A stretch of DNA of 64,000 bases from Isoetes taiwanensis (lineage: Eukaryota; Streptophyta; Lycopodiopsida; Isoetales; Isoetaceae): contig JAJEKV010000026.1 of assembly GCA_021234155.1 (NCBI GenBank), positions 17,777,147 to 17,841,146 on the forward strand, read 5' to 3'. The position numbers were made by a program, and so were the translations under genes. The notes under the pieces are model-generated. The model was given only the letters and a program-made list of their open reading frames with translations. It searched no databases and was not told the DNA's origin. How positions within the stretch are numbered: the first letter of the stretch is position 1; the number at the start of each line of letters is the position of its first letter. Positions 38,017-64,000 of the stretch are shown in pieces.

Positions 38017-38039
38017 TGATCAAAAATTTCTAGGGCGCT

Positions 38040-40510: not shown

Positions 40511-40535
40511 CGTTTGAAGTTTCCCGAGGACGAAG

Positions 40536-42420: not shown

Positions 42421-42519
42421 ATTAAGCTATGGGATGCCAAAGACTTTTGAACAGTGTCAAGACAAAGACATTATTAATGCCACATAAATCTCATGTTGGA
42501 GCAGGGCCCGCAATGCTCT

Positions 42520-42640
42520 CCAACCCCAGTTTCTGCTCTTGTTCCTGCTCTTGCTCCTGTTCCAGTTCCTGCTTCTGCTCCTGCTCCAGTTCCGATTCTA
42601 GTTGCTCCTGCTCTTGCTCCCCTGCTCCCGCCATGTTTTG
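42520..42640 (+). repeat. CTCCTG minisatellite, unit 2
   Basis: TTCTGCTCTTGTTCCTGCTC-type hexanucleotide repeats in tandem. This is the densest run of CTG/CAG trinucleotides in the unit and the place where the three units disagree most. Confidence 0.75.
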
Positions 42641-42734
42641 CTCCCCGCTCAGAGGCTTCTTCATGCCCTCGGGCCAGATTCTCAAGATTTCTCTTTGCAA
42701 GTTCATTAAACTGAAGGCAAGGTCGGGTTCAGGT

Positions 42735-45480
42735 TTTGCAATCCAAGTTCAAGATTTGTTCCAAGATTTGAAAGACAAGAAGCATAATCCTCTGAAAAAG
42801 TAGAAGTAAGGTTTGAAAGCCCAAAGGCAGCCACCTTACAAATAAAAGGTCCCACAAAGTGGTAAAAGTTATTCTTAACTAATCCCTCGTGTTTGATCGA
42901 AATTTGGTTATACTTAAAAAATCATCTATGTAAAGTATATCTCATGACCAGTGGCCTGTTCCAGAAATTTTCATTTATAAATGGGGCAGTGGAAAGTGAT
43001 TCAGTTTTGTGGCTTGATTGAGTTTTGATAATCAACATAGATACAAATTTTGCCATTGTGCGTGATGGCAATCATGATGGTGCTCATCCATTTAGAATGT
43101 TTGATCTCATAAATAAGGTCAGATAACAAGGGTTTGCCAATTTCAGCCAGGGATAGATTCTGTACGTACGAAATCTAAATTCATGACGTATAAAGTTAAA
43201 AAATACATATTTTTTTTGAAAAAAGCGTATTTTACGTATTTTTTAGTCGCCGGCCAGAAAAAAAAAATTTTACAGACGCTGAAACCTTCTAAACCACAGA
43301 CGCTGAACAAGAAAATCGTGACATCCGAAAAAAAAGGGATTTTTTTTTGTGTTCGTGTATGCCCTTTATACTTTTTCGCATACGCGAAAAAGCTTTCGCA
43401 CGTAGTTTAGAATGTTTCGCATACGCGATATTCAAATTTCAACTTTTTTTTGCTACGCCTTTATAATTGCTTCACAGACGCGGTTTAGCTGTGACGCTGA
43501 AATTCAAATTCAAATTGTGACGCTGGATTTTCATTTTTTTTTTTTTTTCTTCACAGATTTTCATCATCGTTTAGTGTAACGCGAAAAACTTTCGTGATAA
43601 TGGAGAAATAGTGTAAAGCGTGTAAACGAATTTTTTTTTTTTTTCACAGACGCTGTTTTAATCGCTTTTGCATACGGCGAAAAACTTTCGCGGTAATGCG
43701 CTTTTAGTTCTTTTCACAGATGCAAAAATCTTCCGACACCGTGAATTGTTTTTGCCATATTTTTTAGGTATTATAATGACAATTTGTGTCAGATTATACT
43801 TAATAATATATATTACATATAAAATGTATGGCATTGAACCTATCCCCGATTTCAGCTTTTAACTCTATCACGGTAATTTAGATTAAGCCTATACTATCGT
43901 TGCTAAATGGAAAGTGAGTCCGTTTTGGTGGGAATGGTGAGTTCCCCCAACTTCTTTTTTAGTGCCAGCCTTTTTTGTGCAAATATATATATTTCTATTT
44001 CTTGAGTAGTTTGAAAGCAGCATTCTGCCGCTAGAGGCACTAGTTGATTCGTGTTAATATCATTGACTTTTAATTTAGACTTGAAACGTGTGGAACGACA
44101 CAGAAATACTGGGTTAGCGTGTTCAACTAAGAGAAGTGTTCATGGTGACATTGAAAGTGCCATCTGGGATAATCAGTTGATCATGTTGCCAATATTGTAT
44201 GCTCTTTGGTTTACGTAGGAAAGGACAACCAACTAATAATATTATTGGGCCGCATGGATCATCTCCCCTTTAATACCAAACTCAAGGAGATCATCAATGT
44301 TGGTGGTAAGTTCCATGTTGATGGAAATGACGAGATCAAGTTGACCTTACTTAAAATAATATGAACGATTTGCTAAATTTTTGGGCACGACCGAGATCAT
44401 GTTAACAAAGTGCATATCTTTGAGCACGATTATGTGCTAATGAGAGACATATTATTGTTTGTAACTAAAATCAATCCAATTTAAGGATTTGGCTGGTGGA
44501 AGATTCGTACAGTTGATTTGAGCGATGAAACTGTAGAGTTGCTCTTACACATTATCAATGAAAGTTGTGGGAGTTTGAACTTGGTTCATAGGGAGGGAGT
44601 GGAAGCAGATCGAAGGTGGTTGTGGTCCTCTTTAGCTTTAGCAATCCAAGTCAATAGACTATTAGTCGAAGATGAAGTAGTGTGATTAGTTCCTGGAATC
44701 TAAACTTGACCTCGGGGAACGACAAGACAAGTGTTCTCGATATGTCTCCATTAATGACAATTGAAATTATAGAGCTTTTGAAGGATCAAAAGTGTTATGT
44801 GGTTGAATGGATGATGATCTTTGCTTATAAAACTACTAAGTCAGTTGTTGAGGTGGAACCTAAGTCACTGGTGTGGTTTAGATTTGATATACATTTTTAT
44901 ACGAAAAGGCGTGGAATTTTTTTTTGTGCATTCTTCCATGACATGAGTGATCTTATTACGTTTTTTGCAATGTGGACCTCCCAGGCTAGAGTTACATTCA
45001 TTGACCAGCTGTCCTTGATATTCGCCGAGATTCTTGTTGTTCTGGTTGCATGGTGTTCTGGGCCACTAGAACTAGTAGTATGATGTTAGCGTTAGACACG
45101 GGAAGACGTGAAGAAAAGTCATTCGCAAATTGAATAGTAGTTTCTAAGGATTTTGGATGTTGAAGTTTTATCGTGATTCGAGAAGGTAGAAGACTGTTGT
45201 TCTGGAAGCCATAGCTTCCACCACCATATCTTCTCGATGTTGCACTGCCTTCCTCCACACAACAAAAACCTTTGCAAAAACACAAAAAAAAAGCCTCACA
45301 AAATGCATGTATCCTACTCAATCTATGAAAAAGCAATCTAACACAATCTAGCCACTTTCTCCATCATGCTATCAAGGACAACCGATAGAAAACATTCTCG
45401 CCAATATAATCGACGCAAAAGGCCAACCATTCGTCCTCCTTAATAGTGTCTAATGCTCCCTCATGTAAGTTGACGTGTCG
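42735..45480 (-). mobile_element. Ty3/gypsy fragment (gag, protease, RT), unit 2
   Basis: Read on minus from 45480: a gag-like frame with LHEGALDTIKEDEWLAFCVD, WRKWLDCVRLLFHRLSRIHA and ITIKLQHPKSLETTIQFAND (family pattern P-(S/T)LEEAI-xA); then a protease-like block near 44.2-44.4 kb; then RT at 43.18-42.74 kb. The RT includes GKICIYVDYQKLNQATNTNH followed by FPLP, then GHEIYFYIDDFF-YNQISIKP and VAAFGLSNLTSTFQRIMLL. These match NGKIRVCVDYRKLNAATxxDxFPLP, GHExYSFLDGFSGYNQI and VMPFGLxNAPATFQRxM. RNase H and integrase are absent. The strand is opposite to the flanking LINE and MULE, so this is a separate insertion. Confidence 0.8.
43230..43740. repeat. CpG-motif array in AT-rich DNA, unit 2
   Basis: About ten short motifs of two kinds, TTTCGCATACGCGAAAA (near-palindromic) and TTCACAGACGC, lie in T-rich sequence within the gypsy fragment, between its protease and RT parts. 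Confidence 0.62.
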
Positions 45481-45784
45481 TCAAATGGAGGCGCTCAGTT
45501 CACAACATGTAACGCCGAGAGACTTCCAATATGAGCCTTTTGGGGTTGAGAGACTTTCAATCTAAGCCATTGAATTAGCATATCTATGGCATATGTTATC
45601 AACCTACCTAAGCTTAGTTCAGAAATTCCCCAGAACCCTTGGTTCAAGAATTTCTCCAAATTTTAAACCTAACGTGTGGATTTGGAAATTCACATTATAA
45701 TAGAGCAAAAAAATTTCCTGCTAAAAATAGTGATTTTCCTTGATACTTTCGTTTGGAATCGATAGAATAGATTTGAATTAATTT

Positions 45785-45890
45785 TTTTTGAACTTTCGTT
45801 TGGAATGGAATGGAATGGAATAGAATAGAATAGGATAGAATTGAATTAGCTTTTCTTGATACATTCATTTGGAATAGAATAGAATCGAAT
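45785..45890 (+). repeat. GGAAT/AGAAT pentanucleotide tract, unit 2
   Basis: Same tract as in unit 1, followed by CATTTGGAATAGAATAGAAT. Confidence 0.8.
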
Positions 45891-46145
45891 TAGAGTTTAT
45901 GGTTCACGGAGACCAAATCAGGTAGGCCGGGTTAGATCCAGCTTGCTGATTATGCCCCAAAAATTCCCAAACCAATCACCTCAAGGGCAACCCAAATATC
46001 ATTTTGGAAGATTTTAGCAAAATAACTTAAATCCAGGTTTTATTTATAGTACGTCAAATAATAACAAGACTTCCCACATATTTTTGCACTTGAACCAAGG
46101 GCTATCGATGGTTCTAAGTGCACCCGATTTGGGTTGGCCTCCCGT

Positions 46146-46493
46146 GGAAACCCTTCCAAATTTCCATGGAAACCCTTCCAATTTTCCATGGAAACCCTTC
46201 CTATTTTCCATGGAAACCCTTCCGGCTTTCATTAAAACCAGGAAGGGTTTCCAATGGAAAATTGGAAGGGTTTCCCATTTGAAAATCGGAAGGGTTTCCT
46301 CGGAAAATGGGAAGGGTTTCCATTTTTTTTTTTCGCACGCCGCCATTAATGGTGCACGCTCATGCACGCTCATAAATATGCACGACACCCAAGAATTTAA
46401 ATTTTAATTCAAATGGAAACCCTTCCTATTTTCCAAAGCCATGGGAAAATAGGAAGCGTTTCCACAAATGGGGGAAAATAGGAAGGGTTTCCA
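46146..46493. repeat. GGAAACCCTTCC fold-back array, unit 2
   Basis: Four direct GGAAACCCTTCC motifs at 46146, 46168, 46190 and 46212 (22-bp spacing) are followed by four inverted GGAAGGGTTTCC motifs at 46241, 46264, 46288 and 46310. After a gap come one more direct motif (46415), a variant inverted one near 46452 and an inverted one (46482). The two blocks can fold on each other. It ends about 65 bp before the first ATG of the MULE gene and may be its promoter or a transposase-binding region. Confidence 0.85.
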
Positions 46494-46556
46494 CGTTTGA
46501 TCAAAAAATTTCTAAGGGCGCTTCTTGCGCTTTGCTCTCCGCCACTGCATCTCCTT

Positions 46557-48985
46557 ATGAATCCGGAGCTTGACGCATTTGAAGAATGCGAGGAGGATGC
46601 TTCTACCGATTCATCACAATATGATTCGGACGAAACTGTAAGTGATTTTGCTTTTGAAAATATTGACAATGCTGCAAGTTTTGAGGATTTAGAAGATGAA
46701 GACAATGCAGGACCAAATGTGGAGTATGATCCCTTGGAAGAGGAACGTTACATTCAATGGTTTCCTCCTATTCCTGTTATCGCCTCTGCTGAGGGCTACA
46801 TTTTTAACGAAGCTTCATATTATTTGATGGTGCATTGTGTCCAAAATTCCGTCCATCCCTTTGTTCAAGATGTCCTTCAAGCAGATCCTAATTTTCCTGC
46901 GGGGTATGTTCGCCAAACACAAAAGCCACGAGATACACAAATCATAACGAGGTGGTCGAGCTTCTAGGAGAAGTTGCAAGTCCATACAGAATCTCGTCTT
47001 CTCTTGCGCTTGACCTTTGGCAAATGGCTCTACATCCCACCATCATGGATGTGGAAGCAAATCATCTTCAGAGCTCATGTCGAAGGTGGTCTACGCCACT
47101 TGCCTATATGTCCTACCCTAGATAACATCAAGAAGGTATGGCAGATTGGAGCCAAGTTTCATGGCATTCCAGAAGATTATGTGAGGCAATGCATAGAAGT
47201 ATGTGGGTGCAGTTCCCGTCCGACGAAGCCTACGAGGAGACAAGAGTTATTCAATTATGAGGAGATAGTGCCATATCACTCCTTGGAAAGTCGAGTGGAG
47301 CAGTTACAAATAGATCACAGGACGCCATACCAGGGATTGGATGAATGATATGATATGTGTTGATTACATCTGTCATCGAGGGGGAAGTGCACGAAGGCGT
47401 GGTCTGTGTCAGGGAAGACAGACAAGAAGGAGTTTCAAGATAAGATGCGGGTTTCGTCTTCGCACAATGATACCGAGCAATCCGAGTACAGATAGTTCTG
47501 CCACAATACACATTTGTGTTGGGCATGATGGACACAACCCGTGGTCTGAAGATGGCGAGTGGTCCCGGCCCTTGCATCCCTCTGTTGCAGAGGTGACTGC
47601 TAACATGCTGCTGGACACGAGATATTTTCAAGCTGTGTGGACTAATATGTTAGAGAGAGAAAAGAAGTTGTGTCGCACCACCACACCAGTGGAGAGAGCC
47701 ACTTATCGCTTTAAGGTGGCCCACGAGGGCATATGGCACATTGGTTACCACTTACGTATAAAAGGTATGTACACTTATCCAACATGGAAGGAATGAAATA
47801 AGTTTTTCTTGTTTTTTGGGTTACCACGCCTATTGTGTTGCAGGATCATTACTCGGACCAGATTGGGATGCCGTAGAGAGTGGGATGGATGCTTGGGTTA
47901 GATCAGGAAAGGTCATATACCACCAACCCTATGCACCCGACCATGATGACCCGACTAGTCGGCCTTGGATTGTTGTCATCCAGGACAAATGGATGCTGGA
48001 ACAAGCTATAAAGTACAGTCCAAATGGTGGTTGGACCATGGATTCCACGTTCAGAACTAACATGTATGGTTGTCCACTATATGGTGCACATGTCCCTAAT
48101 CTCAATGGTATCGGCGTGCCTGTTTTCTACATGCTGTGCACCATTGTCCCTGGGAAGCACCATGAGAGATTGGCATTGGGAGTGGCCCTGCGTGCAGTCT
48201 TTGCCCGCATGGGCAGCGTTCGACCTAGGGCTATTATGATAGACCTCGATAACGCAGAACGAGCAGCATTAGATGATGTCATTCTCGAGGACCCGCATTG
48301 CTGGCTAGGGGAGACACAGGTGAACCCTTTATGGAAGTTATTATGTAATGCATATTATATCGCGTAATGTATTGTCTGCAGATCGCATGTCATGTTCTTG
48401 CGTGTTGGTTCCATAGGAAACAGGTGTGGCTAAAGTATCTACTACCGAAGGTAATTCCTCTATTACGTGTACATATGGCATCACCTCGAAGTCGTTAATC
48501 GCTATCCCCTTGCGGGTTCGAGTCAAGCAAGAAAGAAAATGCGGCTATTCTTGCCTTTCTCTCATGATGACAGAGTTCTACCTTGCCAAAGCATAATCTC
48601 GGCTTGTATAAGATCCTCCATCCCAATTTGTTAGTGTAGATGGAATTGAAGCCCCAAAGGGCACAATGGAGACGCTGAAAGAAGTCGCCCTCATGCTTGT
48701 AAAGAAGAAGCAAGCGACTCTTCAAAAGTGGGTTGATATAACGACAATGCAGTTTGACAGAATCCAGGTGGCAGAGAAAGAAGAGCTGGAGCAGATTATC
48801 CAGGAGGTATGCCGTGATGTCAGATTGCTCGGTTCCGCAGATAGCCCTGCACCTATGAAGTTCAAAGGGTCTTATGCCGCGATGTGCTGCTGCTTGCGGG
48901 ACCTCTCTATCCATCTAGATCGCTTTGGTCCACTTCGGACAAGAACCACCTCTCCACGCGGAGGTAGGCCAAGGGGTGGAACAAG
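46557..48985 (+). CDS. MULE/FAR1-like transposase gene, unit 2 (best copy)
   Basis: From ATG 46557 the frame reads an acidic N-terminus (MNPELDAFEECEEDASTDSS), has an in-frame TAG at 46965, and continues in the same frame with HVEGGLRHLPICPTLDNIKK and IPEDYVRQCIEVCGC (Zn-binding-like). After a shift near 47340 comes SFKIRCGFRLRTMIPSNPST then ATIHICVGHDGHNPWSE, a FAR1/FLYWCH-like C..C..H..H finger. After intron 1 the MULE-type DDE core reads GGWTMDSTFRTNMYGCPLYG, VPVFYMLCTIVPGKHHERLA, IMIDLDNAERAAL and, after intron 2, IACHVLACWFHRKQVWLKYL (the C-x-FH...W block). Introns 47765-47843 and 48320-48381 splice perfectly in frame. A Glu/Lys-rich coiled coil ends it. The TAG and shift suggest decay or consensus error. 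Confidence 0.82.
47765..47843 (+). other. intron 1 of the unit 2 MULE gene
   Basis: CGTATAAAAG|GTATGTACAC ... TGTTGCAG|GATCATTACTC. This is a phase 1 intron of 79 nt; removal joins HLRIK-G-SLLGPDWDAVE in one frame. It is conserved in all three units. Confidence 0.88.
48320..48381 (+). other. intron 2 of the unit 2 MULE gene
   Basis: GAGACACAG|GTGAACCC ... GTCTGCAG|ATCGCATG. This is a phase 0 intron of 62 nt; removal joins CWLGETQ to IACHVLACWFH, the conserved C-F-H block of MULE transposases. The next intron begins after CTACCGAAG at 48451, and its acceptor near 48515 is damaged. Confidence 0.86.
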
Positions 48986-49011
48986 CATCGTTTGAAGTTT
49001 CAGGGGGAAAG

Positions 49012-49884
49012 TTTCCCTTTGTCTTTCTCTTTTCCCATACCACTTATCCCTTTTCTCACCACTTCCTTCTTTCCCTCTTCCCTTTTCCTCGTGTCTCTTT
49101 GCCTTTTCCTTTTCACCTTTCCACCCCCTTTTTCTTTTTTTTTCCTTTCCCTAACCTCCCCCTTTTCCCCATTGCCCTTTTTTTCTCTCCCCTTTTTTCT
49201 TTTTGTTTCCTCTTTTCCTTTTCAATTGCGTAGTTCCCATTTCCCCACCTTTTCCATGCACCCCTTTTCCTCCTTTCTCCATCCTCTTCTTCTTTTCCCT
49301 TTGTCCGTTCCCCTCCTTTTTTTCTTTCCCTTTTTTTTTTTTACTTTTTCCATGCTCTTTTTCCCATCATTTTTCCCCTTTCTCCAACCTTTCTCCTTTG
49401 GGCTTTTTCTCGTGCCCTTTTTCCATCTCCCTCTCCCCTTTTCTCATGCCCATTTTCTCCTCCCTTTTCCCCTTTCCGCATTGCTTTTTCTTTTTTCCTT
49501 CCCCTTTCGCTTTTCCAATGCCCCCTTTCCCTTTACTTTTCCTCCTTTCCCCACTCTTTTCCCATTGCCCTTTCTTCCTTCCCTTTCCTCTCTCCCCTCT
49601 TTGTTTTCCCTTTCTTTTTTCCCTTTCCCATGTCACTTTTCCTTTTCCTCACCATTTTCTTCTTCCCCTTTTTCCCAGTCCCTTTTTCCCTCTTCCCCTT
49701 TTTCCCAGGCCCTTTTTCCCTCTTCCCCTTTCCCTCGTGCCTTTTTCCCTTCACTTTTGCCTTTTCGTCCTCCCTTTTCCTTAATCTTCGATATTGCAAT
49801 AAAATCATCACCGTTCGATAATCCACACCATTAGATTTAGGGCTTGATGGAAGCGGACCTGCGCTAAAACATTATAATATAGGA
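49012..49884 (-). mobile_element. Helitron 2, 5' part in unit 3
   Basis: Nearly identical to the unit 2 copy, with the same terminus ending AATATAGGA at 49884 followed by host T. It also lacks the 3' terminus. Confidence 0.82.
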
Positions 49885-50895
49885 TGGTGCCATGAATGTG
49901 CGATCCCCCTTATTCCAGGAGAATATTCCAAGCAAATCTGTAATTATGAGAGTTTGGTATTCTAGGTGGCATGGGAAAAAAGGAGCGGAAATATGACGTG
50001 GAATGGCTGATAGGAGGCCATTTTGAGACCCCAAATCCGCCCTAATGATATTGATCAGCTGGAGAGATGGCTCGCTGATAATGGAGGCACTAGGGCTCAC
50101 CTCCTACACCAGATCACCAGGCAGCTGATCTATGCTGATGATGTGGACCTTCTAGCACACACTTAGGCAGACATGCAACGCCATCTCAATGCCCTGGGTA
50201 TATTTTGCCAGGTGACTGACATGCGCATCAACTTAGCCAAAACCAAGGTAGTTCTGGTATCGTCCGCATGCCAGCCAAGGCCTTCAATCCTCACTTATCG
50301 TGGCCAAAATGTTGAAGCAATGCCCGCTTACAAATATTTGAGAGTGGAGTTCCCATCGGCCATGAACTGGGGCAATTCCATCCGGCTGCGAGCCGTAGCA
50401 GGGGAAAGGCACTCTATGCAATGGAGAACAATAGCCACAAGGCAGACCAATCGCGCCTATTCAAGGTCTTTGGTAGAACCCGCGTGCTTTTGTAAGGGTC
50501 GAGGTCGGGGCACTGGTGGGATTTCCCTACCGCCACTTGGAGTGACTTGGCAGGTGTAGAAAGCTTTCTTGGCATCGGGCCCAGGGGTGAAGTCACGGAT
50601 TCCATACCGACAATCTTTGCAGTGTGAAATAGGTTTCTTGCCTCTTCAAAGAGGGGCCCTTGACAGACACATCGTCTACTTCCAGAAGGTGGTCAGCATG
50701 GATGATACTCGTCTCCCTAACCTCGCTTACACTATGGCAATGGGGCCTCAACGTCTAAAAGCCTGCTGGCAGGAAAAGAGAGCTCAGTGACTGGCCAGAT
50801 GGAATGTGCAGGAGCACAGGTGCATCCAAGTACAAACGGAGGCAAATCGCCGCAGTCTCAAACAGTACCTTGACACATGCTTCCTCATTAAGCTA
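49885..50895 (+). mobile_element. LINE 3' ORF2 fragment, unit 3
   Basis: Same fragment as in unit 2, with YADD intact and the same TAG (AACTTAGGCAGACATG-type context). It is damaged around 50455-50640, where CTG/CAG sites are rewritten. Confidence 0.83.
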
Positions 50896-50984
50896 TGGGA
50901 TGCCAGCACCCTTGAACAGGTCAAGACGGCACATTATTAATGCCACATAAATCTCATGTTGGAGCAGGGCCCGCAATGCTCTCA

Positions 50985-51115
50985 ACCCGATTTACGCTCT
51001 TGTTCTGCTCTTGCTCTGTTCAGGTTCACCTTACGCTCTGCTCCAGTTCCGATTCTAGTTGCTCCTGCTCTTGCTCCTGTTCCTGCTCATGTTTTTGCTC
51101 CTGCTTCTGTAGAGG
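50985..51115 (+). repeat. CTCCTG minisatellite, unit 3
   Basis: Same array. Some CTG words are changed to TTACG or AGG, others intact (GTTGCTCCTGCTCTTGCTCC). Confidence 0.72.
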
Positions 51116-51199
51116 CTTCTTCATGCCCTCAGTTTCGTATCTCGAAGATTTCTCTTTGCAAGTTCATTAAATCTGGAAGGCAAGGTCGAAGTTCAGGTT

Positions 51200-53940
51200 T
51201 TGCAATCCAAGTTCAGTATTTGTTCCAAGATTTGAAAGACAAGAAGCATAATCCTCTGAAAAGTAGAAGTAAGGTTTGAAAGCCCAAAGGCAGCCACCTT
51301 ACAAATAAAAGGTCCCACAAAGTGGTAAAAGTTATTCTTAACTAATCCTCAGGTTTGATCGAAATTTGGTTATACTCGAAAAAATCATCTATGTAAAAGT
51401 ATATCTCATGACCAGTGGCCTGTTCCAGAAATTTTCATTTATAAATGGGGCAGTGGAAAGTGATTCGTATTTGTGGCTTGATTGAGTTTTTGATAATCAA
51501 CATAGATACAAATTTTGCCATTGTGCGTGATGGCAATCATGATGGTGCTCATCCATTTAGAATGTTTGATCTCATAAATAAGGTCAGATAACAAGGGTTT
51601 GCCAATTTCAGCCGGGGATAGATTACATGCGTCACTGAAATCTAAATTCATGGCGTATAAAGTTAAAAATACATATTTTTTTGAAAAAGCGTATTTTCGT
51701 ATTTTTTAGTCGCCGACCGGAAAAAAAAAATTTTCGCGTCTGTGAAACCTTCTAAACAGCAGACTTGAAAGCAAAGAAAAAAGCGCATCTGCGAAAAAAA
51801 GGGATTTTTTTTTGTGTTCGTGTATGCCCTTTATACTTTTTCGCATACGCGAAAAAGCTTTCGCACGTGGTTTAGAATGTTTCGCATACGCGATATTCAA
51901 ATTTCAACTTTTTTTTTTGCTACGCGCTTTATACTGTTTCGCGTACGCGGTTTAGAGTACGCGAAATTCAAATTCAAATTCGTACGCGGGATTTTCATTT
52001 TTATTTTTTTTCTCTTCTGCGTACGCGGTTTTCACTGTTTAGTGTACGCGAAAAAACTTTCGCATACGAGAAATAGTGTAAAGCGTGTAAACGAATTTTT
52101 TTTTCCGCGTACGCCGTTTTCAACTGATTTTGCATCTGCGAAAAACTTTAGTGTCTGGCTTTAGTTCTTTTCAGCGTATGCAAAATCTTTGACACACGAA
52201 TTGTTTTTGCCATATTTTTTAGGTATTATACGACAATTTGTGTCGTATCATACGAATAATATATATTACATATAAAATGTACGAAGTATTGAACCTATCC
52301 CTGATTTCAGCTTTAACTCTATCACGGTAATTTAGATTAAGCCTATACTATCGTTGGTAAATGGAAAGTGAGTCCGTTTTGGTGGGAATGGTGAGTTCCC
52401 CCAACTTCTTTTTTAGTGCCAGCCTTTTTTGTGCAAATATATATATTTCTATTTCTTGAGTAGTTTGAAAGCGACGTGCGCTAGAGGCACTAGTTGATTC
52501 GTGTTAATATCATTGACTTTTAATTTAGACTTGAAACGTGTGGAACGACACAGAAATACTGGGTTAGCGTGTTCAACTAAGAGAAGTGTTCATGGTGACA
52601 TTGAAAGTGCCATCACGGGATGTCGGTTGATCATGTTGCCAATATTGTATGCTCTTTGGTTTACGTAGGAAAGGACAACCAACTAATAATACGGTCGCAT
52701 GGATCATCTCTGCTTTTGAATACCAAACTCAAGGAGATCATCAATGTTGGTGGTAAGTTCCATGTTGATGGAAATAGCGAGATCAAGTTGACCTTACTTA
52801 AAATAATATGAGCGATTTGCTAAATTTTTGGGCACGGCCAAGAGATCATGTTAACAAAGTGCATATCTTTGAGCACGATTATGTGCTAATGAGAGACATA
52901 TTATTGTTTGTAACTAAAATCAATCCAATTTAAGGATTTGGCTGGTGGAAGATTAAATGCTGATTGATTTGGCGATGAAGCGTAGAGTTGCTCTTACATT
53001 ATCAATGAAAGTTGTGGGAGTTTGAACTTGGTTCATAGGGAGGAGTGGAAGCAGGTCGAAGGTGGTTGTGGTCCTCTTTAGCTTTAGCAATCCAAGTCAA
53101 TAGACTATTAGTCGAAGATGAAGTAGTGTGATTAGTTCACGGAATCTAAACTTGACCTCGGGGAACGACAAGACAAGTGTTCTCGATATGTCTCCATTAA
53201 TGACAATTGAAATTATAGAGCTTTTGAAGGATCAAAAGTGTTATGTGGTTGAATGGATGATGATCTTTGCTTATAAAACTACTAAGTCAGTTGTTGAGGT
53301 GGAACCTAAGTCACTGGTGTGGTTTAGATTTGATATACATTTTTATACGAAAAGGCGTGGAATTTTTTTTTGTGCATTCTTCCATGACATGAGTGATCTT
53401 ATTACGTTTTTTGCAATGTGGACCTCCCAGGCTAGAGTTACATTCATTGACCAGCTGTCCTTGATATTCGCCGAGATTCTTGTTGTTCTGGTTGCATGGT
53501 GTTCTGGGCCACTAGAACTAGTAGTATGATGTTAGCGTTAGACACGGGAAGACGTGAAGAAAAGTCATTCATAAATTGAATAGTAGTTTCTAAGGATTTT
53601 TGGATGTTGAAGTTTTATCGTGATTCGAGAAGGTAGAAGACTGTTGTTCTGGAAGCCATAGCTTCCACCACCATATCTTCTCGATGTTGCACTGCCTTCC
53701 TCCACACAACAAAAACCTTTGCAAAAACACAAAAAAAAAGCCTCACAAAATGCATGTATCCTACTCAATCTATGAAAAAGCAATCTAACACAATCTAGCC
53801 ACTTTCTCCATCATGCTATCAAAGACAACCGATAGAAAACATTCTCGCCAATATAATCGACGCAAAAGGCCAACCATTCGTCCTCCTTAATAGTGTCTAA
53901 TGCTCCCTCATGTAAGTTGACGTGTCGTCAAATGGAGGCG
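51200..53940 (-). mobile_element. Ty3/gypsy fragment (gag, protease, RT), unit 3
   Basis: Same structure. The RT N-terminal block is best preserved here (51651-51439: MSTIMIAITHNGKICIYVDY then QKLNQATNTNHFPLP). A 133-residue plus-strand frame across its gag end (53128-53529) is open in units 2 and 3 but has no recognised motif and lies antisense to the retroelement. Confidence 0.8.
51715..52200. repeat. CpG-motif array in AT-rich DNA, unit 3
   Basis: About twelve near-palindromic motifs such as TTTTCGCATACGCGAAAAA (51838), TTTCGCGTACGCGG (51940), CTGCGTACGCGG (52017) and CCGCGTACGCCG (52104). Where units 1 and 2 read CACAGACGC, this unit reads GCGTACGC. Confidence 0.65.
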
Positions 53941-54244
53941 CTCAGTTCACAACATGTAACGCCGAGAGACTTCCAATATGAGCCTTTTGGGGTTGAGAGA
54001 CTTTCAATCTAAGCCATTGAATTAGCATATCTATGGCATATGTTATCAACCTACCTAAGCTTAGTTCAGGAAATTCCCCAGAACCCTTGGTTCAAGAATT
54101 TCTCCGAAATTCTTAAACCTAACGTGTGGATTTGGAAATTCACATTATAATAGAGCAAAAAAATTTCCTGCTAAAAATAGTGATTTTCCTTGATACTTTC
54201 GTTTGGAATCGATAGAATAGATTTGAATTAATTTTTTTTGAACT

Positions 54245-54350
54245 TTCGTTTGGAATGGAATGGAATGGAATAGAATAGAATAGGATAGAATTGAATTAGC
54301 TTTTCTTGATACATTCATTTGGAATAGAATAGAATCAAATTAGAGTTTAT
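54245..54350 (+). repeat. GGAAT/AGAAT pentanucleotide tract, unit 3
   Basis: Same tract as in unit 2, with one base changed near its end (AATCAAATTAG for AATCGAATTAG). Confidence 0.8.
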
Positions 54351-54593
54351 GGTTCACGGAGACCAAATCAGGTAGGCCGGGTTAGATCCAGCTTGCTGAT
54401 TATGCCCCAAAAATTCCCAAACCAATCACCTCAAGGGCAACCCAAATATCATTTTGGAAGATTTTAGCAAAATAACTTAAATCCAGGTTTTATTTATAGT
54501 CGTCAAATAATAACAAGACTTCCCACATATTTTTGCACTTGAACCAAGGGCTATCGATGGTTCTAAGTGCACCCGATTTGGGTTGGCCTCCCG

Positions 54594-54940
54594 TGGAAAC
54601 CCTTCCAAATTTCCATGGAAACCCTTCCAATTTTCCATGGAAACCCTTCCTATTTTCCATGGAAACCCTTCCGGCTTTCATTAAAACCAGGAAGGGTTTC
54701 CAATGGAAAATTGGAAGGGTTTCCCATTTGAAAATCGGAAGGGTTTCCTCGGAAAATGGGAAGGGTTTCCATTTTTTTTCCCGCCATTAATGGTGCTTGC
54801 GCTCATGCACGCTCATAAATATGCACGACACCCAAGAATTTAAATTTTAATTCAAATGGAAACCCTTCCTATTTTCCAAAGCCATGGGAAAATAGGAAGC
54901 GTTTCCACAAATGGGGGAAAATAGGAAGGGTTTCCACGTT
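54594..54940. repeat. GGAAACCCTTCC fold-back array, unit 3
   Basis: Same array with all eight core motifs intact, 4 direct then 4 inverted, upstream of the unit 3 MULE gene. Confidence 0.85.
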
Positions 54941-54989
54941 TGATCAAAAAATTTCTAAGGGCGCTTCTTGCGCTTTGCTCTCCGCCACT

Positions 54990-57440
54990 GCATCTCCTTA
55001 TGAATGGGAGCTTGGCGATTTTTGAAGAATGCGAGGAGGATGCTTCTACCGATTCATCACAATATGATTGATTTATGGCCGTAAGTGATTTTGCTTTTGA
55101 AAATATTGACAATGCTGCAAGTTTTGAGGATTTAGAAGATGAAGACAATGCGAGGACCAAATGTGGAGTATGATCCCTTGGAAGAGGAGCGTTACATTCA
55201 ATGGTTTCCTCCTATTCTGTTATCGCCTCTGGCGAGGGCTACATTTTAACGAAGCTTCATATTATTTGATGGTGCATTGTGTCCAAAATTCCGTCCATCC
55301 CTTTGTTCAAGATGTCCTTCAAGCGGATCCTAATTTTCTGCGAGGGTATGTTAAGCCAAACACAAAAGCCACGAGATACACAAATCATAACGAGGTGGTC
55401 GAGCTTCTAGGGAGAAGTTGCAAGTCCATCTGAGAATCTCGTCTTCTCTTGCGCTTGACCTTTGGCAAATGGCTCTACATCCCACCATCATGGATGTGGA
55501 AAAAATCATCTTTGAGCTCATGTCGAAGGTGGTCTCGCCACTTGCCTATATGTCCTACCCTAGATAACATCAAGAAGGTATGGCAGATTGGAGCCAAGTT
55601 TCATGGCATTCGGAAGATTATGTGAGGCAATGCATAGAGTATGTGGGTGCGGTTCCGTCCGTGAAGCCCTCACGAGGAGACAAGAGTTATTCAATTATGA
55701 GGAGATAGTGCCATATCACTCCTTGGAAAGTCGAGTGGAAGCGGTTACAAATAGATCCTGCGGGGCGCCATACCAGGGGGATTGGATGAATGATATGATA
55801 TGTGTTGATTACATCTGTCATCCGAGGGGAAGTGCAAGGCGTGGTACGTAATGGGGAAGGCGGACAAGAAGGAGTTTCAAGATAAGATGCGGGTTTCGTC
55901 TTCGCACAATGATCACCAGAGCAATCCAGAATGCGAATAGTTACGCCACAATACACATTTGTGTTGGGCATGATGGACACAACCGTGGGTGCGAAGATGG
56001 CGAGTGGTCGGCCCTTGCATCCCTCACATTGCGAGGTATTTTGCTAACATCTTTCTTGGACACGAGATATTTTCAAGCTGTGTGGACTAATATGTTAGAG
56101 AGAGAAAAGAAGTTGTGTCGCACCACCACACCAGTGGAGAGAGCCACTTATCGCTTTAAGGTGGCCCACGAGGGCATATGGCACATTGTTTACCACTTAC
56201 ATTATAAAGGTATGTACACTTATCCAACATGGAAGGAATGAAATAAGTTTTTCTTGTTTTTTGGTTAACCACGCCTATTGTGTTGCAGGATCATTACTCG
56301 GACCAGATTGGGATGCCGTAGAGAGTGGGATGGATGCTTGGGTTAGATCAGGAAAGGTCATATACCACCAACCCTATGCACCCGACCATGATGACCCGAC
56401 TAATCGGCCTTGGATTGTTGTCATCGGGACAAATGGATCTTTGGAACAAGCTATAAAATGCAGATCCAAATGGTGGTTGGACCATGGATTCCACGTTCAG
56501 AACTAACATGTATGGTTGTCCACTATATGGTGCACATGTCCCCTAATCTCAATGGTATCGGCGTTACATTTTTCTACATCTTTGTGCACCATTGTCCCAG
56601 GAAGCACCATGAGAGATTGGCATTGGGGGTGGCCTGGCGTGCAGTCTTTACCCGCATGGGCAGCGTTCGACCTAGGGCTATTATGATAGACCTCGATACT
56701 TGTGAAGCGGCGGCATTAGATGATGTCATTCTCGAGGACCCGCATTCTTTGGCTAGGGGAGACGGGTGAACCCTTTATGGAAGTTATTATGTAATGCATA
56801 TTATATCGCGTAATGTATGTATTGTCTGCGGATCGCATGTCATGTTCTTCGCGTGTTGGTTCCATAGGAAGCTTGAGGTGTGGCTAAAGTATCTACTACC
56901 AAGGTAATTCCTCTATTACGTGTACATATGGCATCACCTCGAAATTAGTTAATCGCTATCCCCTTGCGGAGGTTCCAGTCAAGCAAGAAAGAAAGCGACT
57001 ATTCTTGCCTTTCTCTCATGATGGACAGAGTTCTACCTTGCCAAGCATAATCTCGCTTGTATAAGATCCTCCATCCGGTCTGTTAGTGTAGATGGAATTG
57101 AAGCCCCAAAGGGCACAATGGAGCGGCCCGAAAGAAAGTCGCCCTCATGCTTGTAAAGAAAAAAACAGCGACTCTTCAAAAGTGGGTTGATATAACGACA
57201 ATGCGGTTTGTGAGAATCCGGTGGCGAAGAAAGAGCTGGGGCAGATTATCGGGGAGGTATGCGTGATGTCAGATTGCTTTCGGTTCATGAGATAGCCCCG
57301 CACCTATGAAGTTCAAAGGGTCTTATGCATTGCGAGGCTTTCTTTGCATCGGGGACCTCTCTATCCATCTAGATCGCTGGTCCCGCCGACAAGAACCACC
57401 TCTCCGCTGGAGGTAGGCCAAGGGGTGGAACAAGCATACG
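54990..57440 (+). pseudogene. MULE/FAR1-like transposase gene, unit 3 (broken)
   Basis: Same gene with breaks concentrated at former CAG/CTG sites (for example TGCGGTTCCG for TGCAGTTCCCG near 55650). The DDE-core pieces NMYGCPLYG and RPRAIMIDLD are readable, and intron 1 borders are kept. The copy ends at the right junction of the tandem array. Confidence 0.78.
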
Positions 57441-57460
57441 TTTGAAGTTTCAGGGCGAAG

Positions 57461-57935
57461 AAATTTAGAAGCGATGTTATGTTGTACTCTACTATCTTTG
57501 CATCATGACACTATGATATACTAATTTGCACACTCACCCGGTTTTGGTCCTTTGTTGAAAACATCGGTTTTGGTAGGTCTACATGTCCTATAACCACGAT
57601 TGCAAATTAAGCGGAGTGTTGCAAACACTCCGTTCAAAGATTCCTTGAAAAAACAGCCTGATCTAGAAAATGACACTTTTTTCCTTCTAATTGGGAATTC
57701 CAATAGGCTTAATTTTTTTACCTCTTTTGGCCCCTAGTGTAAAATAACTTGAATTTGCCAAAACCAACACTTGAAAAGGGGAAGAATTTTAGACATGCTT
57801 TTGTATTCTCAAAAAGTACTATCTTGAAAACACCAGAATGTAGTGAATAAAATAATTATTATATAATGAAGAGTGTTTCAATGATACAATTTGTAACATC
57901 ACATGGTGGTCAGTATTAATGTTTTTTGGAAAAGA
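57461..57935. other. spacer between the array and the methyltransferase gene
   Basis: No gene seen. It is AT-rich towards the right and probably contains the 3' UTR and poly-A region of the minus-strand gene that follows (AATAAAATAATTATTATATA near 57847, plus orientation). Confidence 0.4.
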
Positions 57936-57939
57936 CAGA

Positions 57940-60900
57940 CTAAAGGTCCAAATCGAAGTCTTCATCATGCTTTTTGCTTGATTCTAACGTGCCGATTTCT
58001 GATCGATCCTTTTCTTGTGCCTTACCCTTGTCTACTTTTGCAGTGTCTTCAGGAATGGTAGCTAGTGCCACTTCTTTCAGCTCTGCAAAAGTAGCTTCAT
58101 CCTCTAAAGAGCTAGTGAATGGAGGCTGTATCTCAGAAGAGGTCAGCTTGGCAAAATCGGATGAGGATTTGGCCCCTAACTCTTGGTGCTCATCTGGTAG
58201 GGTAGGCAAGGCTGCAAGTCTCATCTTGATGAATTGCACAGCTTCTTTATCAATGTCCACTGCTACACAATTCCGGCCCTTCCTAAGTGCACAAGCTATT
58301 GTTGTACCAGAGCCAGAGAAGGCATCAAGCACCCAATCTCACGGGCGTGAAAACATGTGTCTAGGAGATGGTTGATTTGCACTTTGAGGCTTACGGTAGT
58401 GATTAACAATTCTACCTTGTGCACTAGGGTCCTAGAACTTTTGAAGCACGGCTGGAAATTCCAACACATTAGAAAAATGCGCATGTCACGTGTTAAAATG
58501 CTCCATGGTGCGTTTTCCATCGAAACTCCAGTAAGCAACATGGAGGTATTCAACCTTTTCAAAGAATCTCGCCCGCCGCTTATGGTAGTTTATATTTGTT
58601 TTGTACACAGCCAGAAATTAGAGTTGGTGTCACTAATCTAAAACAGAACAAGAAACAAACAAAGAGAACAAGTCAAAGGCAATTATATTACGGAATAGAA
58701 AACTAAAACAAAAGAAGAAACAAGCCCAGCATTATTCAGGAATAAAGTACTCACCAAACCAAATTCTCATAACCCGCCTTGCACGGGGATCCGGGTGAGT
58801 TTTAAACGTGGACTCCACAAGGCGATTGCATGCTTTCGAGTGAAACACACGACAAGAGGCGCGGTCTTGGCCGTTGTGACTTGTTTGATGCGTCGATTTA
58901 AAAGCATTAAACTCACGAAAATTTAAAAAGGTTGGTCGATGCGTCGAACGGCTGTCCTTTAGTTTAAAGCCATAAGGAAGGTCCCGCAATCACCCGGTGT
59001 GAAATCTTGTGGCTTTCTTGTCCCAACCAAATTAGTGCAGTCCCCGTGAATGATGGAAAACAAATTGTTTTGGTCAAATAAATTAAACTTTTCATAATCA
59101 GAAGGCTCCACATCTAGAGTTCTCCTCTCTGCCAGTGTTCTTTCTTCTCGTGCCAGTCTGACGAGGTGCATGAAACCTTCTGGCAGGTCCTTATTTTTCT
59201 TCTTGTTCTGCAAACAAAGGGGAGATTGAGACAGAGACAAGTAAAGTATGACGTGTTTAGTCAGCGTACCCATCCTTCAAAATTTGGTGCGTACTGAAGC
59301 ATACGCTCGTCGGATGTAGCTATGGGATAAAGCTCCTTGCACCTCTCCCACGTCTCCACGTTGAGTTGCTCCATCAGACATGTCTGGCAGGTGATAACAT
59401 TTTTTTGGCTAGAAAGAAAAACACAACCTTTTTAGCAGTTAAAAAGAGAAAACGCGAAGTAAACTATCTTCCTGCCACCTAAAGTTATTCTAGAATACAA
59501 GCGCTGTAATCAATATTTTTCTTGTTGCAGAAGTGTATTCCAGAATACACTTTAACTGCAAAGAAGAAGCGAAAGTGTATTCTGGAATACACTTCTACAA
59601 TGCAACAAGTTAGAGTGTGTAGACCCGTATCGTTTTTTCACGACTCAAAGGAGTAAAAGTGTATTCTGGAATACACTTTTACACTACAAGAAGAGAGAAC
59701 GTGTATTCTGGAATACACTTTCGTTCCATCGAGGGTGCGAAAGCATTTCCAGGAGCACTAGATTGCTGTTATCTGGACAGAAATCTACAAGTGAAAAGGC
59801 AGCAATAATTGTATGCTTACTTGTGCAACTCCTTCGACATTTCTTCGAGTGTGAACTCCTTGTCCACCACCTTTTGCAGAAGCTGTTCTAATAATTGATT
59901 GTCAAGAAACCCTGCATCTCCTCCTCATTGCTGATGGTCATTTCTTTCTTTGGGACGTCACGCCTTTTCTTCTTCTCAGGCACCTTTCCCTTACTTTTTA
60001 GCTCACCGCTCAAACATATTAAATATTTAGGATTCTGAAGCTCCCGGATCTGCAAACAAATTAAAAAACTTAGAAGCTAGTTGCACACTAAATCTTATTC
60101 GGAATACGCTTGTAACCTTTAATTCGCCATCCCCGAACGCTAAATTTGAAACCAATTGTCATGACCAATGATTGATGCGGATTTGTTAAGCCTCGTCATT
60201 ATTTAAGGCAACACTCAATGGCACAAACTTCTTTAAGTTCAAGAGATCTCGTGGCTTTTTGAGATCCTCTCCATACTTTTTCCTTGAAAATAACATATTC
60301 TCGTGCATGAATCTGATTTTGTCGACAAAGCTCATTTTTAACTTGTACTCGTTGTCGGGCGTTGTGAGTGTTGGTAACGATTTTGGCTTCCCTCGTCGGT
60401 CAAACCACGAAAGAAAGCCTGAGAGAGAATGGACAATTACCTAGGATTTTTTTTTCCTTGTATAATTGCCTCCTTGCCTTAAAACATGGTTCCCACCCAA
60501 AACATAATGCGTATATGTGTCCGCATTTTCTCTATCGTACTCTGCAGGAGTTGTGCACGCTCTCTATCAACAAGAACAACAATTGAGCTACATGCATTGG
60601 GATTGCTCCGGATTACATCCTTGAGGTTCCTTAGATGGTCTGCATATATCTTTCGAACCTGCGGTGGTGGATTCTCGCCTTCATTTTTGGAGGAAGCTTC
60701 ATAGTGGACCGGCAAATAAATGACACCTTGCACAAATTTGTAATGGGGTTTATTTCTTCCATTTTCTCTTTGTTTTATCAACTTTTTTTTTTCTTTGATG
60801 GCAACGCAGGTGCTTTGCCTTTCCCCCTTCTTCTTCTTGTGTACATCCTCGGGAGCATCTTCCATTTCAATGATAGCCGTTTTCTTTTCTTAGGCTCTTT

Positions 60901-61465
60901 AGCAGCCACGGTTTGCTCCCCTTCTTTCTTTGGTGGTGGAGGGTGGTCACTCTTCCGAACCTGATGAACTCATGGATGGGCTCGAGACCCGTGATGGACT
61001 CCTTGATAAATTCCTCGATCTTCCTCTTCCCCTTGTTCGACTCTCGGTAGGGGAAGTCCTCGCTCGTTATTGCTTGAATGTAATTAATGATGGCGAGAGC
61101 GACCTCTTGTTCACGTAGTGAGAAACATACTTATAAAGAGGATGTGGATTTACCTTCACAAGTCTAAGGTAGGATTCATCAACATGAATAAAGCCTTGAG
61201 ATGTCTGAAAAGACAATCTCCCTCCCTTACCGGTCTGCCCAGCTACCTCACTCACGGACAGGATGGTGCCCATGCAGACAAATTCCTCACATCGTGACTT
61301 TTGGTTCCGGGTCTGACAGACATGTAGAAAAGTCGTGTCTTTGTACTTTCCGAAGTACCCTTCAAAAACCATTGAGTTTGCAAAGCCAGAGATAGCAGCG
61401 ATCCGACTCCTCAACCCTTCTCCTGGGGGTGCGGTTTGCAGACGATTTTAAGAGGCTTCTTCATT
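57940..61465 (-). CDS. beta-class DNA N4/N6 methyltransferase-like gene, multi-exon
   Basis: The likely start is near 61465 (MKKPLKIVCKPHPQ). Exons then read GFANSMVFEGYFGKYKDTTF and LSFQTSQGFIHVDESYLRLV, ALAIINYIQAITSEDFPYRE, a Lys/Arg-rich linker, HYKFVQGVIYLPVHYEA, IRELQNPKYLICLSGELKSK, LQKVVDKEFTLEEMSKELHK, and CQTCLMEQLNVETWERCKEL. The catalytic part has FSIIHGDC, then DLPYGFKL (motif IV, DPPY-like) at about 58985, EKVEYLHVAYWSFDG, and VLDAFSGSGTTIACALRKGR with AVDIDKEAV (motif I, SAM binding) at 58335-58240, then an acidic tail to DEDFDLDL. Order IV then I is beta class. Introns have GTAAG/TGCAG borders. Frame breaks near DLPYG vanish if CGGG is read as CAG. N4-cytosine methyltransferases are known from Marchantia sperm and bdelloid rotifers; this may be related, or TE-borne. 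Confidence 0.78.
59481..59720. repeat. array of 22-bp palindromes in a methyltransferase intron
   Basis: Four copies of AAGTGTATTC-NN-GAATACACTT-type palindromes at 59531, 59573, 59657 and 59699 have central CCAG or CTGG. A degenerate fifth (AAAGTTATTCTAGAATACAA) lies at 59481. They fall between exons ending and starting at about 59820 and 59410. Spacing is irregular (42, 84 and 42 bp, multiples of 42). Confidence 0.88.
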
Positions 61466-61716
61466 TGTTTTCTTGCACATGTATGTTGCAAATTTGTGTA
61501 AACACGACCTTGTTAGAAAAAACAGTAGCAAAGAACTATTCCAGAATACAAAATGGCTTACAAAAAGGGAAAAAAGAGGGCAAAAAGAGGACAAAAATGT
61601 CAAAAAAGCACTGCAATCTTGACAAAAAAAGTGGTCTAAACAAGCTAAAAATGCAGCAAGAACGCCTAAATTAACTAAAAAACGCAAGGAAAAGTAACCC
61701 CTAAAACCTAAAAACA

Positions 61717-62038
61717 GGGTAAAAGCATGTTAGGGTGTCCCTTAAAAAGTATTATTTAGTGACCAAAAAGGTACCTAAAAAGGTAGCCAGGACTGGGTAC
61801 TAGGTACCTGTATAATATCTCAATATAAGGTATGTTTTAGAACTTTTTATATATATATTGGTCTCCGATAGCATTATCTTTATCTTAGCTTTGAATATTA
61901 CCATGTCCTTGACTTTTATTTTGGATTTTTGTGTTAGTTTTAATGAAAAGAAAAATGAGAAAGTACCCAGTTTTGAAGTACCTAGTGTATGTACTTTTGC
62001 AGGTTCCAAAAGTGGTACACCCTAACATGCTTTTACCC
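61717..62038. mobile_element. 322-bp MITE with inverted ends
   Basis: The left end GGGTAAAAGCATGTTAGGG and its exact inverse at the right (CCCTAACATGCTTTTACCC, ending 62038) form terminal repeats of at least 22 bp, extending with weaker matches (subterminal GGTACCT words). The interior is AT-rich and non-coding. A target duplication is not clear (AACA on both sides at best), so the superfamily is open. Confidence 0.82.
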
Positions 62039-62045
62039 AACACGA

Positions 62046-62184
62046 AAGTGTATTCCGGAATACACTTTGAGGCACATCTGGTAAAGTGTATTCCGAATAC
62101 ACTTTCGCTCGAAGTGGAGGGCGAAAGTGTATCGGGAATACACTTTCGCCTTCGAAAGGGAGGCAAAAGTGTATTCGGAATAAG
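62046..62184. repeat. second array of the 22-bp palindrome, diverged
   Basis: Four copies at 62046, 62084, 62125 and 62166, about 40 bp apart, read AAGTGTATTC-CG-GAATACACTT or shortened forms with centres CCG, CGGG or CGG. It begins 8 bp right of the MITE. Further partial words (GTGTATTCGAGAATAG, GTGTATTCGGAAATAAG) continue to 62500. Confidence 0.85.
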
Positions 62185-62560
62185 AAATGCATACGCAAAT
62201 GATTGCACGTTGTACTTTCAATCGACCGCCCATGGTTTCTATGTGAATGGAATACAGTCACGAATATAATAATCGAAGCGCTTGGCGCCGGGCGATTTGA
62301 GCTCGAGACTGGAATACACTGGCTGGCTGCGCAAATTTCCTTTTAAAGGTATCATTTCGGGTTTGTTCTTTTCTATGTGATCCGAATACGCTTTTGCTTT
62401 ACTATCCTACTCTTGTGTATTCGAGAATAGCTTTTATTTTGACTTTCACTTGATTAGTTTGGAACTTCTACTTGTACCCACGCGGGTGTATTCGGAAATA
62501 AGAAAAGCTCGCATTACTGTAAAGTTTCTTAAATCTCTTTACTATTTTGCGCTTGTCAAG

Positions 62561-62764
62561 ATGACGAACCGCCGTGGAACAAGCTTCCACCACCTTTTGT
62601 TGTCTCAAGCTGCCTCTGGTTCTCGAGGGACACGCTTGGGAACAACGTCATTTCTAGTGAAGACCCGGAGATTCTCCTCCTTACCTACCGCTTCATCGTT
62701 GTTGCTTCGAAGACACACCCAGGAGTCCAAAGACATACCGGATTTCCACCACCCTTCCAAATAG
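62561..62764 (+). CDS. uncertain exon of an unrecognised gene
   Basis: ATG at 62561 opens MTNRRGTSFHHLLLSQAASG followed by a Ser/Thr/Arg-rich stretch. A second frame through the same interval is open too, so the reading is doubtful. Words such as CCACCACCCTTTGTTCCA and CCACCACCTTTTGTTG recur to 62860. No family is recognised. Confidence 0.3.
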   Translation: MTNRRGTSFHHLLLSQAASGSRGTRLGTTSFLVKTRRFSSLPTASSLLLRRHTQESKDIPDFHHPSK

Positions 62765-63067
62765 TCACCAAGTCCACAGAGACAAAGATTAATCGGCATC
62801 TCCTTCCAAAGAATCACCACCAGTTCGGAGCAGGTTGCCACCACCCTTTGTTCCATCCCCGGGACCTACAGAAGCTCCACAACAAAGGGTGCTCAAGAAC
62901 AAGCTACCCCCTTTTTTTGTAGTTTCGCCTTCGTTGCAAACATACAAGGAACACAGAAAACACAGAAGACTGTGAGATTCAGTACAATTTCTCTCACCAG
63001 GACTTCACTACAAATGAGGACGACGCTCCAGCATGCACTCCTCTTCACACAACAACGGTTGTGACAC

Positions 63068-63277
63068 ATGGATTTGCAGAATTCCAAATCCGCTCCTAAA
63101 GGAGATGTTTGCAAGAACTCCTTTTCAAGATGGTATGAAGAAAGCCTGATGCCACAACCTCTTATGGGCCATCACCATCCTTTAACACCATACTCGCCTA
63201 TTCCGGGAACAACTTCACGTGGTCTGTTTTTCCTCTACAAGCACACCACTCGTGACAGAGGGAAGTCACCCCCGTGA
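63068..63277 (+). CDS. uncertain exon of an unrecognised gene
   Basis: A short open frame reads MDLQNSKSAPKGDVCKNSFS then RWYEESLMPQPLMGHHHPLT. It could continue the frame at 62561 through introns or errors. No domain is recognised; it is kept only because composition differs from the AT-rich spacer to the left. Confidence 0.28.
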   Translation: MDLQNSKSAPKGDVCKNSFSRWYEESLMPQPLMGHHHPLTPYSPIPGTTSRGLFFLYKHTTRDRGKSPP

Positions 63278-63679
63278 GTAGAAGTTTCATCGAAGATGAA
63301 GACACCAACGAGGAACAAAGAGATTACATGTTCTCAAGCCAATCTTCAAAGAAATTCAAGGTGGATTTTGGTTTGAGGGCGTGCTCCTCTCAAGAAGAAG
63401 AAGAAATCTTATGGATGAACACAAAATGAGGAGACTTTTTGAGAACTAAATGCTGCTCATTAGGTTGCATCAACAGATTTAATATGGCTAAATTACGAAA
63501 GCGCTAGAGACAACTACAGGTTCCATGACATTGGCGAGACCGTAATGCCTACTTAGCTTATCATGTAAGACCAGACCGCAACACCTTCTTGCACTACATT
63601 AACCGCCAAGAAGTTTGCCGAAATGCTTTATGGTTGTCCACCGTTTAGGGTCCACCGTAATGTCTAGAATACACAAAAG

Positions 63680-63910
63680 ATCGACAAAAATCCAGCAATC
63701 GATGATCATTGTGGACCAAGAAGAGTTGTAACCATGCATGCCCTTGCTTTGTGTCATGGATGGAGAAATATTTTAGAGAAACATGTGAGAAGCTACCTAA
63801 CAAAGAACATGTATCATTTAACCGATAACATCACCAAAAAAGATGTTTTTAATGAGTACAAAGAGACTTGCACTCAGCCAAAGACATCTCTTACTCACAC
63901 TTCACCGTGA
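63680..63910 (+). CDS. exon-like segment of an unrecognised gene
   Basis: One frame reads AIDDHCGPRRVVTMHALALC, HGWRNILEKHVRSYLTKNMY and HLTDNITKKDVFNEYKETCT without stops for about 75 codons, just after a MLYGCPPFRVHR segment in the same direction. The composition is protein-like and Cys/His/Trp containing. Family unknown; it probably continues beyond the window. Confidence 0.42.
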   Translation: MDKNPAIDDHCGPRRVVTMHALALCHGWRNILEKHVRSYLTKNMYHLTDNITKKDVFNEYKETCTQPKTSLTHTSP

Positions 63911-64000
63911 GTGGAAAAGTGAATTCGGTCTTGTGAAAATTCCTAGAAAACATAGAATGTCCATTTTGCTCGAGGTGTGCGTAATTAAAGAGTCAACGAA

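Follow-up and report, generated by a model that had tools for sequence, protein, structure and literature searches.

The stretch of DNA analysed here (the window, 64,000 nucleotides from Isoetes taiwanensis) carries on its minus strand, between 57940 and 61465, the coding pieces of an N4/N6 DNA methyltransferase (MTase). An earlier note had set the borders of the feature at these two positions. They do enclose pieces of the MTase gene, but this is one gene of a transposon that begins at 57592 and ends beyond the window, at about 66158. The element is a plant DNA transposon present in many copies, and it has inverted ends, 4-bp target duplications and two divergent genes. Its parts, with the basis of each call, are as follows.

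57592..64000, continuing to about 66158 beyond the window end (total about 8.57 kb), minus strand (that of the MTase gene): DNA transposon copy; borders common to sister copies, inverted ends and flanking 4-mers
57592..57617, minus strand: terminal inverted repeat at the MTase end (the other end lies beyond the window); end alignment of six copies
57943..58606, minus strand: MT2, the terminal exon piece, carrying an acidic tail and motif I DAFSGSGTT; PF01555 match at 6.9e-9 and sister-exon alignment, window frames broken
58796..59201, minus strand: MT1, the exon piece containing HGDC... as well as motif IV DLPYG; sister-exon alignment, window frames broken
59270..59407, minus strand: short exon piece "mid2"; frame intact and stop-free, 95.7% identity to sister copy L015
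59533..59718: intron array; its four 18-bp palindromes are near-perfect and begin at 59533, 59575, 59659 and 59701 (spacing 42, 84 and 42)
59820..60049, minus strand: exon piece "mid", the end of the ParB-like part plus a linker; sister-exon alignment
60126..60785, minus strand: ParB-like exon piece; sister-exon alignment, window frames broken
61097..61360, minus strand: N-terminal domain; residues 17-105 are 71.9% identical to L015
62048..62065: intergenic palindrome, 18 bp and perfect, with the divergent genes on either side
62533..64000, plus strand: start (approximate) of the divergent transposase-like gene, whose DUF7869 core lies beyond the window end at about 64181-64642; opposite-strand open reading frames here and in sister copies

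In a profile search, the last exon (58338-57943, minus strand) matches PF01555 at 6.9e-9, and the five joined exon pieces of a sister copy, L024, match at 2.1e-18; the search of the C-terminal domain that the earlier note had called for thus bears out its assignment. Motif IV (DLPYG) lies ahead of motif I (DAFSGSGTT), which is the beta-class order of DNA methyltransferases. The same kind of search matched no Pfam family to the N-terminal domain at 61097..61360, and Rfam and tRNA scans of the window gave no matches. Across the genome (1,658,258,908 bases in 1110 contigs), PF01555 yielded 1443 first-look candidates, and all 150 that were scored lie above the curated cut-off, well beyond what chance would give. 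GT-AG borders, which had been proposed for the window gene, recur in 11 sister copies across their exon pieces, with two exceptions: in L021 and L026 the acceptor ahead of "mid2" has no AG at the usual place. Retrotransposition as the origin of the copies was considered and rejected, introns being kept in 11 of 11 copies examined. Three copies are stop-free over 664-702 residues of five joined exon pieces. Motif I is kept in 26 of 28 loci and motif IV, in the form D-L/I/V-PYG, in 22 of 28.

The window copy itself is damaged. DLPYG and the HGDC stretch upstream of it lie in different frames, and DWVLDAFSGSGTT is preceded by a TGA. Over the aligned parts of the five exon pieces, strict treatment of gaps gives 18 frameshifting indels with 3 in-register stops, and lenient treatment 49 with 4. 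The gene structure first described stands as regards motif order and exon pieces, but not as a readable frame; the catalytic motifs, whose loss the earlier note had named as grounds for giving up its reading, are kept in sister copies, while the window frames are broken. Aligned to the sister copy E1093 over 2500 columns, the transposase part of the window copy shows 26 one-base indels. Compared with E1057, one-base indels number 1-2 in E1051, E941 and E1093 and 21-22 in E1030b and E1067, at similar levels of substitution. The counts in transposase halves are bimodal (1-2 versus 21-27 per 2.5 kb among copies of similar divergence, with E1030b, E1067 and the window high), suggesting that the assembly has a poor consensus in places. 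According to the available part of its description, the Isoetes taiwanensis assembly was built from nanopore reads polished with Illumina data and comprises 1658.30 Mb in 204 scaffolds and 909 contigs (PMC8566536). Because the one-base indel counts split between copies in this way, local assembly error is as good an explanation of the frame breaks as decay, and the broken frames of the window copy are possibly in part an assembly artefact.

Bacterial and phage relatives of the MTase domain raise the question of whether the locus is bacterial or viral contamination of the assembly; the bacterial case had been named in the earlier note as a way in which its reading could fail. Phage records matching the protein number 785 of 50,697, and the 20 matches listed all fall in the MTase part; a scan of viral_contigs gave a single match, L041, again to the MTase part only (38% over residues 548-601). 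Contamination is nonetheless extremely improbable, and its bacterial form was rejected outright: the genes contain introns, many loci lie on multi-Mb contigs, and the closest full-length relatives are in a liverwort and a fern. The protein relatives are Riccia sorocarpa R1sor_003872 (P0001, 2.8e-60), Adiantum nelumboides L7F22_048967 (P0003, 6.8e-36) and P0002 (5.6e-63). They share 31-39% identity with the element protein; P0001 is alignable over the ParB-like part and motif I, its predicted form lacking the motif IV exon, and P0002 over the ParB-like part. Searches of the same genome find 4 matches to LFY, 6 to RuBisCO and 12 to C5 DNA methylase. With PF01555 matches, GT-AG exons, and LFY and RuBisCO in the genome, the central claim of a eukaryotic multi-exon beta-class N4/N6 MTase in a plant genome holds.

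The evidence for a transposon comes from the ends, the flanks and the partner gene. Copies are alignable over about 8 kb and have common borders; the element measures ~8.1-8.6 kb, and the MTase gene occupies its 3' half. Six copies have imperfect terminal inverted repeats of ~25 bp, with ends AACA...TTGC..ATTAAACGGGAG. In 5 of the 6 the 4-bp target duplications are identical (ATAT, CTAA, AAAC, GGTT and TGTG), and the flanks of the window copy, GTAG/ATAG, differ by one mismatch. This duplication matches the length expected for Sola1, whose target site duplication is 4 bp. The target site duplication of Sola2 is also 4 bp (PMC3627910). On the strand opposite the MTase, the 5' half encodes a PF25273/DUF7869 protein (3.2e-51 in E1057), and of the 20 MTase loci fetched (L009-L028), 14 have this transposase upstream of the MTase in opposite orientation, while in 6 it was not found. 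Genome-wide, DUF7869 gave 9902 first-look candidates, and 150 of 150 scored were above cut-off. Among the 120 listed of 142 protein matches, the named sources include liverwort, ferns, Chara, Cymbomonas, lancelets and bivalves. Three acidic motifs (IDGMDQ, LDNTTRENKN and GHTHDQIDQMF) are present in most of seven copies, and we infer that they could form a DDE/D triad; a PDB search with the transposase-like protein returned no relative. The N-terminal part of the transposase, in sister copies and at about 62533-62922 (plus strand) in the window, contains a repeated proline-rich motif, LPPPF..SP. Loci L037-L040 carry DUF7869 transposase relatives with 47-53% identity to the element's own, and these are likewise abundant in the genome. 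In four 3.6-kb loci of other DUF7869 families there was no palindrome of the kind described below, the stretches covered ending short of the position expected for an array.

These features bear on whether the MTase is a domesticated host epigenetic writer, comparable to Marchantia DN4MT1 or bdelloid N4CMT, that by chance lies near repeats. The existence of intact copies under selection, one of which may be domesticated, is what such a writer would share, but high copy number, transposon ends, flanking duplications and linkage to a transposase-like gene all speak against it, and for the window copy it is contradicted by the copy's own inverted repeats and target duplication; we regard it as very improbable. 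Unlike the Marchantia and bdelloid enzymes named for comparison in the earlier note, the MTase is not a low-copy host gene: it is the passenger of a high-copy transposon with terminal inverted repeats, target duplications and a DUF7869 gene. Marchantia DN4MT1 is a low-copy host amino-methyltransferase gene. Bdelloid N4CMT is, in the part of its description available, a host gene carrying a chromodomain (PMC8885841). As far as these accounts go, all are bacterial-type amino-methyltransferases in a eukaryote; unlike the two host genes, the one described here belongs to a high-copy transposon and has motif IV as D[L/I/V]PYG. Counts of N4/N6-methylase genes in the genomes of seed-free plants can include transposon genes that are not host epigenetic writers.

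We compared codon positions between L024, as reference, and the other copies, dropping any copy that aligned over less than 85% of an exon. Differences at positions 1/2/3 were.103/.045/.420 in the ParB exon (15 copies),.089/.057/.407 in MT1 (19 copies),.050/.035/.277 in MT2 (10 copies) and.067/.024/.363 in "mid" (17 copies); the window copy gave.135/.069/.518 in the ParB exon. As judged by this pattern, the MTase has evolved under strong purifying selection, in a set that favours intact copies because all those compared are the best PF01555 matches. The stops and frameshifts of some copies and the broken state of the one in the window would fit an MTase that is a dead passenger, or a neutral one, and that looks conserved only because of recent bursts. 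This reading fits poorly with third positions that differ by 28-42% against 2-6% at second positions (in the same set favouring intact copies) and with three copies stop-free through 664-702 residues, and we consider it improbable.

The two halves of the element have different histories. At third positions, E1051 and E1057 differ by 3.3% in the transposase and 46% in the MTase, and the window copy and E1093 by 6.9% and 53%; for E1051 and E1067 the values are 11.6% and 11.7%. Among seven copies, four MTase lineages (E1051-E1030b-E1067; E1057; E941-window; E1093) sit on closely related transposase halves. The simplest reading of these alignments is exchange or gene conversion, by which closely related transposase halves have swapped their MTase halves.

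The long basic N-terminal extension reported for the MTase is real, and part of it is probably a ParB-like domain, on weak sequence evidence. After the basic stretch, this region matches TIGR03764 at 0.0012, far below the cut-off, and PHROG 723 (ParB-like) at 0.32; a search against plasmids gave 4 matches with E values of 0.3-0.6, all 4 annotated as ParB family proteins, and hhalign gave a P value of 0.0024 and a probability of 12%. Searches found no match to a Pfam ParB family, a PDB entry or a phage protein. An AlphaFold model of P0002 made without an alignment had a pLDDT of 33 and was not used. A published Ectocarpus ParB-MTase with the same arrangement strengthens the ParB name for the region, a name that we still infer.

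That Ectocarpus element, Sola1-1_Ec32, has a ParB-like plus DNA MTase gene opposite its transposase, predicted to produce 4mC or 6mA, and its proteins were proposed to bind and modify their own transposon, according to the sections of the article available (PMC12477816, Genome Biol 2025). Similar ParB-MTase proteins of green and red algal transposons are cited there (Iyer et al. 2011; Petroll et al. 2025, Bostrychia). Going by these sections, a ParB-MTase gene opposite a transposase is already known from Ectocarpus and cited for green and red algae, and the Isoetes element resembles Sola1-1_Ec32 in arrangement, in its MTase domain and, more tentatively, in its ParB-like part; it differs in size (about 8.1-8.6 kb here, 21.5 kb there) and in host (a lycophyte, as opposed to a brown alga). 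The same sections of PMC12477816 mention neither a palindrome array nor cassette exchange and name no target site. In the literature searched, we found no lycophyte case, palindrome array, cassette exchange or test of purifying selection on the MTase.

The closest solved structures to the MTase are MboIIA (2.5e-8; an N6-adenine enzyme by name), CcrM and RsrI, the latter two of which we take to be N6-adenine MTases; PDB chains named N4-cytosine MTases match more weakly, at 0.019 and worse. Judging from motif IV and these solved relatives, we lean towards N6-adenine over N4-cytosine as the probable target, without deciding between them.

A palindrome, AAAGTGTATTCCGGAATACACTTT, is arrayed at ~42-bp spacing between the divergent genes and within an intron of the MTase gene. 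Its core is GTGTATTCCGGAATACAC and its longer form CAAAGTGTATTCCGGAATACACTTTG. Allowing up to 2 mismatches to the core, we found 151 sites in 21 loci and none in shuffled loci; neighbouring sites are less than 130 bp apart in 112 cases, and 79 of these spacings measure 41-43 bp, which is roughly four turns of the helix. In 15 of the 21 loci there are two groups of sites 1.6-2.3 kb apart, one intergenic and one in the intron after "mid", as read from the spacings. In seven extended copies, the 56.9 kb of element sequence contains 53 sites, whereas the 87.7 kb of flanking sequence contains 0. The exact 24-mer palindrome occurs 1474 times in the genome, its reversed control 0 times, and among the matches listed, judged by eye, an exact palindrome lies no more than 2 kb from 6 of the 7 places that match PF01555 on contigs up to C135, the exception being the one on C29. 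In the divergent copies L005 and L007, perfect palindromes are kept in an intron whose remainder fails to align. Some loci are poor in sites: L002 and L027 have none, L013 has one, and L001 a single poor site elsewhere. Deviations from the palindrome number 104; the central CpG accounts for 56 of them, as C>T or G>A changes, which would be expected if the host C5-methylates that CpG.

Phased long palindromes beside and inside a ParB-like MTase gene suggest that they serve as an operator, holding the enzyme on the element that encodes it. The ParB-like part would bind the palindromes as ParB binds parS, this binding would place the MTase on its own element, and the enzyme would then methylate adenine, or N4 of cytosine, there; the mark may shield the element promoter from silencing by host C5-methylation, or regulate that promoter. 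Binding of the palindromes by the MTase protein is, from the arrangement of the sequences, the most likely mechanism; that the element benefits from its own methylation is a guess. The account as a whole, a high-copy DUF7869/ParB-MTase transposon whose palindromes recruit the MTase to the element itself, is the best explanation we have, and we give it an even chance. As in ParB/parS, a ParB-like region and arrays of long palindromes lie on the same element; unlike ParB/parS, the ParB likeness is weak, the region is fused to an MTase, the palindrome differs in sequence from parS, and binding is a prediction. More tentatively, the palindromes may be operators in a bidirectional promoter and in the gene's own intron, the non-C5 mark (6mA/4mC) may counter host C5-methylation, and MTase cassettes may be swapped between transposase backbones in the manner of restriction-modification specificity modules; this fuller version we hold to be possible but rather unlikely.

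The same transposon could also work differently, with the transposase or a host factor binding the palindromes for mobilisation or expression and the MTase acting elsewhere, perhaps modifying transposon DNA in general. DNA transposons commonly contain repeated motifs that their transposase binds, and of the 14 loci in which a transposase was matched, 13 show more than one palindrome site. The arrays, however, lie mid-element and in the MTase intron, away from the element ends, and they persist in L009, L018, L021, L022 and L028, whose fetched stretches gave no transposase match (these loci may be truncated, or the stretches too short). We judge this alternative clearly less probable than recruitment of the MTase to its own element, though by no means negligible. 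The phased 24-bp palindrome provides a candidate cis site on the enzyme's own element, which makes the idea of self-marking directly testable.

Outside the transposon, the window contains three tandem units of about 8.4 kb between 32976 and 57460 (32976-40535, 41406-49009 and 49879-57460) that are 90-93% identical, and the array ends 132 bp from the transposon border. The middle unit carries a MULE transposase domain (47762-48361, 5.4e-8). Strand-asymmetric pyrimidine-rich tracts between the units (31251-32950, 40501-41350 and 49001-49800) yield spurious long open frames. Beyond the far end of the transposon there are long direct repeats, both in L036 and at the window end (past 64000), for example with 86% identity over 1.5 kb.
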